Shown piece after piece: positions 20,797 through 46,351 of a DNA stretch of 51,068 nucleotides (positions are counted from its first letter, which is position 1; every line of letters starts with the position of its first letter). The position numbers and the translations under genes are program-made. The stretch covers positions 1 through 51,068 of IMG/VR virus record IMGVR_UViG_3300009436_000032. One strand, written 5' to 3'. A model generated the notes under the pieces. It did not search any database. It was given only the letters and a program-made list of their open reading frames with translations, and was not told the origin of the DNA. This DNA comes from a virus.

Positions 20797-20848
20797 ATTT
20801 TTAATATTAATTTATTTAATAATACTAAAAATTAATGATAATGTAAAT

Positions 20849-20880
20849 AAAAAGGGGTATAAATATTTATACCCCTTTTT
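20849..20880. terminator. Bidirectional terminator, perfect 22-bp palindrome
   Basis: GGGGTATAAAT (20854-20864) is followed directly by its exact complement ATTTATACCCC (20865-20875), flanked by A and T runs on the two sides. It works on paper in both directions; the genes on both sides read minus, so its job is to end the run from 23287. Confidence 0.85.
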
Positions 20881-20902
20881 ATTTGTTATTAAATGTCAAT
20901 TA

Positions 20903-36369: not shown

Positions 36370-36401
36370 GTTGTATCTTAAATAAAAAATGGGTAGATTT
36401 G
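36370..36401 (+). promoter_or_regulatory. Host-type promoter for DNA polymerase
   Basis: GTTG (36370-36373), 20 nt, then TAGATTTG (36394-36401), an exact TAnnTTTG -7 box of the Bacteroidetes vegetative sigma. Transcription would start at about 36405-36410, giving a leader of about 85 nt. Confidence 0.5.
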
Positions 36402-36425
36402 TTCAATCTTTTATAAAAGATTGAA
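36402..36425. promoter_or_regulatory. Perfect 24-bp palindrome at the predicted polymerase transcription start
   Basis: TTCAATCTTTTA (36402-36413) is followed directly by its exact complement TAAAAGATTGAA (36414-36425). It begins one base after the -7 box, so it spans the predicted start site. It could be an operator for a dimeric repressor or a leader hairpin. There is no T run, so it is not an intrinsic terminator. Confidence 0.55.
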
Positions 36426-36493
36426 AATAATAATTCAATCAAAATACTTGAAAGTTTAAAGAAAAAATAGTTAATTTGTAAAAAATAATATTT

Positions 36494-39784: not shown

Positions 39785-39818
39785 AAAAAAACCCCGTATC
39801 AATGATATGGGGTTTTTT
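39785..39818. terminator. Bidirectional terminator between polymerase and 39836 gene
   Basis: CCCCGTATC and GATATGGGG pair (one G-T) around an AAT loop at 39792-39812, with an A run before and a T run after. It serves the convergent genes ending at 39745 and 39836. Confidence 0.85.
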
Positions 39819-46272: not shown

Positions 46273-46313
46273 TGAATCGTGGTAAATATTGACTTTTACA
46301 TTATTTTAATATA

Positions 46314-46345
46314 TAAAAAAGACACATAATTATGTGTCTTTTTTA
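46314..46345 (+). terminator. Terminator after the 45256 gene
   Basis: GACACATAA (46321-46329) is followed directly by its complement TTATGTGTC (46330-46338), with an A run before and T run after. Confidence 0.85.
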
Positions 46346-46351
46346 TTTTAA

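Follow-up and report, generated by a model that had tools for sequence, protein, structure and literature searches.

A putative DNA-level regulatory repeat in an accessory promoter of the DNA polymerase gene in viruses of Bacteroidota-type bacteria

What does a perfect palindrome do when it begins at the very base after a promoter box and spans the predicted start of transcription? This question is raised by the window analysed here, a stretch of 51,068 nucleotides (IMG/VR record IMGVR_UViG_3300009436_000032) representing a tailed-phage contig, in which such a repeat lies 68 nt ahead of the gene of a family-B DNA polymerase (Table 1). The original prediction had described a host-type Bacteroidetes promoter with a palindrome at its start site and had proposed a repressor operator or a leader switch. 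Promoter and palindrome are indeed found where they had been placed: TTG-N20-TAGATTTG agrees with the TAnnTTTG box of the Bacteroidota sigma-A promoter (PMC9723704, PMC7366714), and TTCAATCTTTTATAAAAGATTGAA follows without a gap, its arms of 12 + 12 showing no mismatch. As the flavobacterial start-site map positions this box at -12 to -5 (PMC9723704), the +1 of the promoter, named P1, is predicted at 36406 and thus inside the palindrome. The palindrome is expected 0 times in shuffled sequence, and when random DNA with matched dinucleotide composition was scanned, 0 of 1442 TTG-N20-box sites had a repeat with arms of at least 10. Directly 3' of it stands AATAATAATT and no T tract follows the stem, so that the earlier statement that it is not a terminator holds in this window.

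Table 1. Features around the polymerase gene (positions in the window; a dot marks a feature without strand).
Feature	Position	Strand	Remarks
Conserved upstream gene, 124 aa	35952..36326	+	homologous + strand gene upstream in 78/91 loci
Intrinsic-terminator-like hairpin between upstream gene and P1	36331..36362	.	T run on - strand passes scan; T5 on + strand
TTG, -33 element of upstream promoter P1	36371..36373	+	exactly 20 nt ahead of box; 20-nt spacing kept in nearly all relatives with the repeat
-7 box of P1, TAGATTTG	36394..36401	+	fits TAnnTTTG; placement -12 to -5 per PMC9723704
Perfect 24-bp inverted repeat TTCAATCTTTTATAAAAGATTGAA	36402..36425	.	predicted -4 to +20 of P1
TTG, -33 element of downstream promoter P2	36448..36450	+	TTG-N20-TTAATTTG
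-7 box of P2, TTAATTTG, one mismatch	36471..36478	+	conserved P2 in relatives
Family-B DNA polymerase, 1083 aa	36494..39745	+	phrog_262 E 2e-68; PF03104, PF00136
Terminator-like inverted repeat at the end of the polymerase unit	39786..39818	.	inverted-repeat scan

Together with the contigs L092-L101 of the same virus the window merges to 223 kb, one contig of 187 kb overlapping the window at 99.97% identity. In these 223 kb TTG-N20-TAnnTTTG occurs at 55 sites compared with 2-11 at neighbouring spacers, and since the spacer-20 sites far outnumber the others we regard this promoter grammar as real. The study that mapped flavobacterial start sites (PMC9723704) makes no mention of so strict a spacing of TTG at exactly 20 nt. 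The virus also encodes a sigma-70 family factor of its own (L097:3878-4717, - strand, 280 aa, with regions 1.2, 2 and 4), which is RpoS/RpoD-like and sigma-A-like; relatives with 49-66% identity are present in 6 of 10 other genomes and weaker ones (38-39%) in two more, with two copies in each of the genomes G004, G006 and G008. Because of this phage-encoded factor the label 'host-type' is uncertain, and P1 may be read by a host or a phage sigma. From the promoter type we infer Bacteroidota-type bacteria as hosts.

The original prediction had overlooked a second promoter, P2, whose box ends 15 nt ahead of the polymerase ATG and which is conserved in relatives, there mostly ending 13-20 nt ahead of it. 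As promoters in this virus mostly lie 15-40 nt ahead of a start codon and P1 is 92 nt away from the polymerase ATG, P2 appears to be the ordinary promoter and P1 the unusual one. The polymerase is apparently the sole gene driven by both and monocistronic, because a terminator-like repeat and a convergent gene come next. This convergent gene follows the polymerase in 83 related loci, and a search for a regulator inside the polymerase operon found none. Its best matches in the annotated phage collection share about 24% identity and come from Salinibacter phages, and none of the phages collected there has a polymerase at least 60% identical to it. For its C-terminal extension, which was inspected by eye, Pfam reports no DNA-binding domain, and the 124-aa upstream gene has no match in Pfam or PHROG. 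In most of the loci L074-L076, L079, L080 and L169-L179 the polymerase gene is about 4.4 kb long rather than 3.3 kb, which suggests the insertion of an intein or intron.

A genome-wide search identified the palindrome as a single site in the 223 kb readable of this virus, in the window even with up to 3 mismatches allowed and likewise in the 187-kb contig. Perfect palindromes with arms of at least 12 are not rare in the virus (n = 21), most of the others being bidirectional terminators of the A-stem-T type. Two perfect intergenic palindromes in the window, at 20845-20884 (40-bp) and 46313-46346 (34-bp), are of this type and probably also bidirectional terminators. A sequence-agnostic scan of TTG-N20-box sites detected the polymerase repeat once per genome in the virus itself and in G004, G007, G008 and G010. 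At other promoters of these five genomes and of G006 only weak, unrelated matches were seen, which were short or lay at degenerate boxes, and in G006, where the polymerase is without the repeat, it is absent from all TTG-N20-box sites. Since the scan finds the element at the polymerase only and G006 is without any, it seems to be dedicated to this gene. A third copy of the half-site, TTCAATC at 36434, is at chance level across relatives, and an Rfam match to a CRISPR-repeat family was below threshold and is also ascribed to chance. At L272 (around position 165505 of the G007 contig) CCTTTGCTAAAGCAAAGG comes after a promoter-like box, together with a stretch richer in GC in which a small structured RNA may be encoded.

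Four protein-guided scans yielded 91 distinct upstream regions of related polymerases, many of them on contigs that are fragments. An inverted repeat locked to a P1-type promoter is present in 69 of these (67 at a TTG-N19-21-box promoter plus L198 and L215, added by eye), showing that the palindrome is conserved in relatives as a structure, one of the points on which the original prediction had staked its validity. The repeats form two classes. In class A (n = 29), of which the window repeat is a variant, the repeat starts at the base after the box, or one base later in L055, L197 and L198, and has the consensus TTAAnC..GnTTAA. In class B (n = 40) the repeat reads TAACTTTG..CAAAGTTA, with the -7 box serving as its 5' arm and the predicted +1 located in the loop; bidirectional -7 boxes were considered for this class and rejected, as no consistent second TTG was visible by eye. 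The repeats are 17-27 bp long and in most loci their 3' end lies 57-73 nt ahead of the ATG. The distance between the arms is not fixed: the same arm TTAAGCAATTT occurs in L071, L003 and L004 in repeats of 24, 25 and 26 bp with 2, 3 or 4 nt between the arms, and the class B half-sites TAACTTTG/CAAAGTTA are identical, yet separated by 5, 7, 8 or 9 nt. The repeat belongs to P1 and not to P2, because L017 keeps P1 with the repeat directly after its box, there 20 nt from the ATG, and has no P2, while L011, L012, L018, L049 and L057 have only the proximal promoter and neither P1 nor repeat. Exceptions are L081 and L179, which have no -33 TTG and keep a terminator-like hairpin at the place of P1. There, a hairpin and its T tract come after TTTG, which looks as though the element had become a terminator or a terminator had become the element.

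Among the 676 stem pairs of the 69 repeats, 671 obey the Watson-Crick rules. The five others are A-A, T-C or T-T and none is G-T, which is weak evidence as related sequences are not independent. Pairs 5, 7 and 8 of class A and pairs 4 and 10 of class B are paired in every distinct sequence, and all four pair types are present at class A pairs 5 and 7. Shuffling of the 3' letters gave P < 0.0001 for these two, P < 0.001 for class A pair 8 and P = 0.0006 and 0.0004 for class B pairs 4 and 10, all of these values being inflated by the kinship of the sequences. A double change from TAAC..GTTA to TAAG..CTTA (C-G to G-C) is found in L022, L032, L075 and L138, each among relatives with TAAC, and when placed on a quick polymerase tree such changes seem to recur independently. 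Even near-identical phages differ by paired base changes (L021, L032, L054). The base of the stem is conserved (TTAAnC in class A, TAACTTTGT in class B); the loops, including triloops, and their closing pairs vary among relatives. A conserved stem base, a free apex and strict pairing would be hairpin-like; from a rigid dimer a constant spacing would be expected. Near-perfect palindromes can, however, stay perfect through templated repair, which would weaken the covariation argument since double changes could then arise without selection for a hairpin. The fixed place of the repeat and its loss together with P1 nevertheless argue that selection acts on it.

If the repeat is read as a hairpin, its acting form could be DNA or RNA. 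Starting from the predicted +1, the P1 RNA of class B would hold a single arm and no hairpin (median 0.0 kcal/mol), and that of class A a shortened hairpin from about nucleotide 1 (median -3.2 kcal/mol). As P1 RNA would thus hold a partial hairpin or none, the full hairpin would exist in read-through RNA only, and P1 in the window lies behind a strong terminator-like hairpin; for both reasons DNA is the likelier acting form. As DNA the hairpins are estimated at -3 to -9 kcal/mol with AT-rich stems of 8-12 bp; they are only moderately stable and may fail to extrude in vivo.

What the sequences present is a pair of promoters with a P1-locked repeat, paired stems with changing letters, variable length and one site per genome; action as DNA, repression and tuning of the polymerase dosage are inferred. 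We tentatively favour, as a reading with a reasonable though not a predominant chance of being correct, a polymerase-specific regulatory element acting at the DNA level in the initiation region of the accessory promoter P1, where it would repress P1 and so tune the dosage of polymerase. P2, being nearer to the ATG, would then serve as the ordinary polymerase promoter. The repeat could be engaged by extrusion into a hairpin or cruciform, or by a phage protein that reads the base of the stem and accepts differing lengths. It would then hide the -7 box in class B and the start region in class A and so switch P1 off, and when free it would allow P1 to add polymerase transcripts. The main options for a trigger would be supercoiling or the replication state, or a stem-recognising phage protein. 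Among these the sensing by a hairpin or cruciform is our favoured sub-mechanism, even if the conserved stem base, such as TTAAnC in class A, might equally suit a protein. In its strongest form a DNA hairpin or cruciform would gate the sigma-A-type P1 and the torsional or replication state of the genome would decide on its firing, a protein-free feedback on replication with arms that evolve together; we consider this conceivable but doubtful.

A phage or host dimeric repressor that binds the duplex palindrome and blocks RNA polymerase at P1, its specificity having co-evolved in each lineage, would be a similarly doubtful explanation. The two-fold symmetry over the -7 box or +1, the half-sites conserved within each class and the tie to P1 would all suit an operator, and a single site per genome would ease co-evolution. 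Identical half-sites that vary by 1-4 bp in their distance would, however, be rotated relative to each other, and where a dimeric operator should keep its spacing and its half-sites among close relatives, variable gaps and paired changes, the latter even between near-identical phages, were found instead. Furthermore, a Pfam search for the helix-turn-helix or ribbon-helix-helix protein expected from the original prediction (168 proteins of 55-300 aa from this virus) gave no clear repressor among the matches listed, which for the alignment A1 are 25 of 36 families. A possible winged-helix protein with a weak match (HTH_45, E 8e-4, below the curated cut-off) in L094:4665-5498 on the - strand is the only candidate regulator among the matches listed. 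The A1 proteins (window, L092, L093) include Acb1 (anti-CBASS), KptA/Tpt1, MscL, LRR proteins and a dUTPase according to Pfam. A dimer operator is thus possible but fits poorly to the turnover of spacing and sequence, and the fixed-sequence operator proposed originally does not agree with half-sites that change quickly and keep their pairing.

Compared with an operator, the fit is worse still for a leader switch in RNA and for a terminator. We regard it as rather unlikely that a hairpin in the 5' end of P1 transcripts or in read-through RNA affects mRNA stability, termination or translation of the polymerase. Conservation of pairing rather than of sequence, the class A RNA opening with a hairpin, the T tract that follows the repeat in L031, L034 and L038 and the precedent of T4 gp43, which uses an mRNA hairpin to repress translation of its own message (PMC3014915), would be in line with it. 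Against it stand the predicted +1 in the loop of all 40 class B repeats, the terminator-like hairpin ahead of P1 in the window, the missing G-T pairs, the unconserved loops and the P2 transcripts, which do not contain the element; for 40 of the 69 relatives the leader switch in P1 RNA is excluded if the flavobacterial +1 placement holds. It would be a surprise if the repeat were an origin element, with P1 priming replication and the hairpin serving primosome proteins: it is unique per genome and the tandem promoter in which it lies adjoins the replicative polymerase, but in four genomes no cumulative GC-skew extreme coincides with the polymerase and the repeat associates with P1 and with no other origin-like feature. 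Least probable of all is that the repeat simply serves the upstream gene as an intrinsic terminator. Terminators account for most of the other perfect palindromes in the virus and a few relatives have T tracts, but the 3' flank is A-rich and not T-rich in most relatives, beginning with A in 37 of 40 class B repeats, the stem is weak, a separate terminator-like hairpin lies upstream in the window and the repeat is lost together with P1.

In summary the comparison of upstream regions suggests that many uncultured viruses of Bacteroidota-type bacteria, forming a large group, have a switch dedicated to replication, for which our search of the literature found no description. As little is known about the timing and dosing of replication enzymes in Bacteroidota phages, an element that dozens of lineages conserve in their polymerase promoter, covarying and in single copy, offers a concrete, testable regulatory switch, and its natural compensatory changes indicate the mutants worth making. 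Should the hairpin act as DNA, promoter hairpins would no longer be confined to virion polymerases of the N4 type but would include ordinary promoters that depend on sigma.

Compared to a Bacteroidota sigma-A promoter, P1 has the same box consensus, but its TTG at exactly 20 nt is much stricter and the phage encodes a sigma-A-like factor. Dimeric phage repressors of the lambda CI/Cro or RHH type use palindromic operators over the core promoter, as is the case for the palindrome here, which differs from them in its variable half-site spacing, rapid paired turnover, single site and the lack of a repressor among the matches listed. With the operator of T4 and RB69 gp43 it shares a hairpin of lineage-specific sequence that lies ahead of the gene for a phage DNA polymerase of family B. 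The T4 hairpin, however, is located in the mRNA about 40 nt upstream, overlaps the ribosome site and has a conserved UAAC loop (PMC3014915), whereas the repeat described here lies further upstream in most loci, has freely varying loops and is predicted to be absent from the P1 RNA of class B and partial in class A. The early promoters of phage N4 need a DNA hairpin extruded by supercoiling, whose non-conserved bases must only pair (PMC4496689). P1 resembles these promoters in that an inverted repeat with a minimal loop lies inside the promoter, is tied to the start site and mixes conserved bases with variable but paired ones in its stem. In contrast to N4, where a virion-carried T7-like polymerase reads the promoter and both the loop bases and the loop-closing pair are conserved, P1 is a sigma-A-type TTG-N20-TAnnTTTG promoter in which both vary, with one site per genome, and we therefore understand the likeness as an analogy rather than as membership and claim no virion-polymerase promoter.
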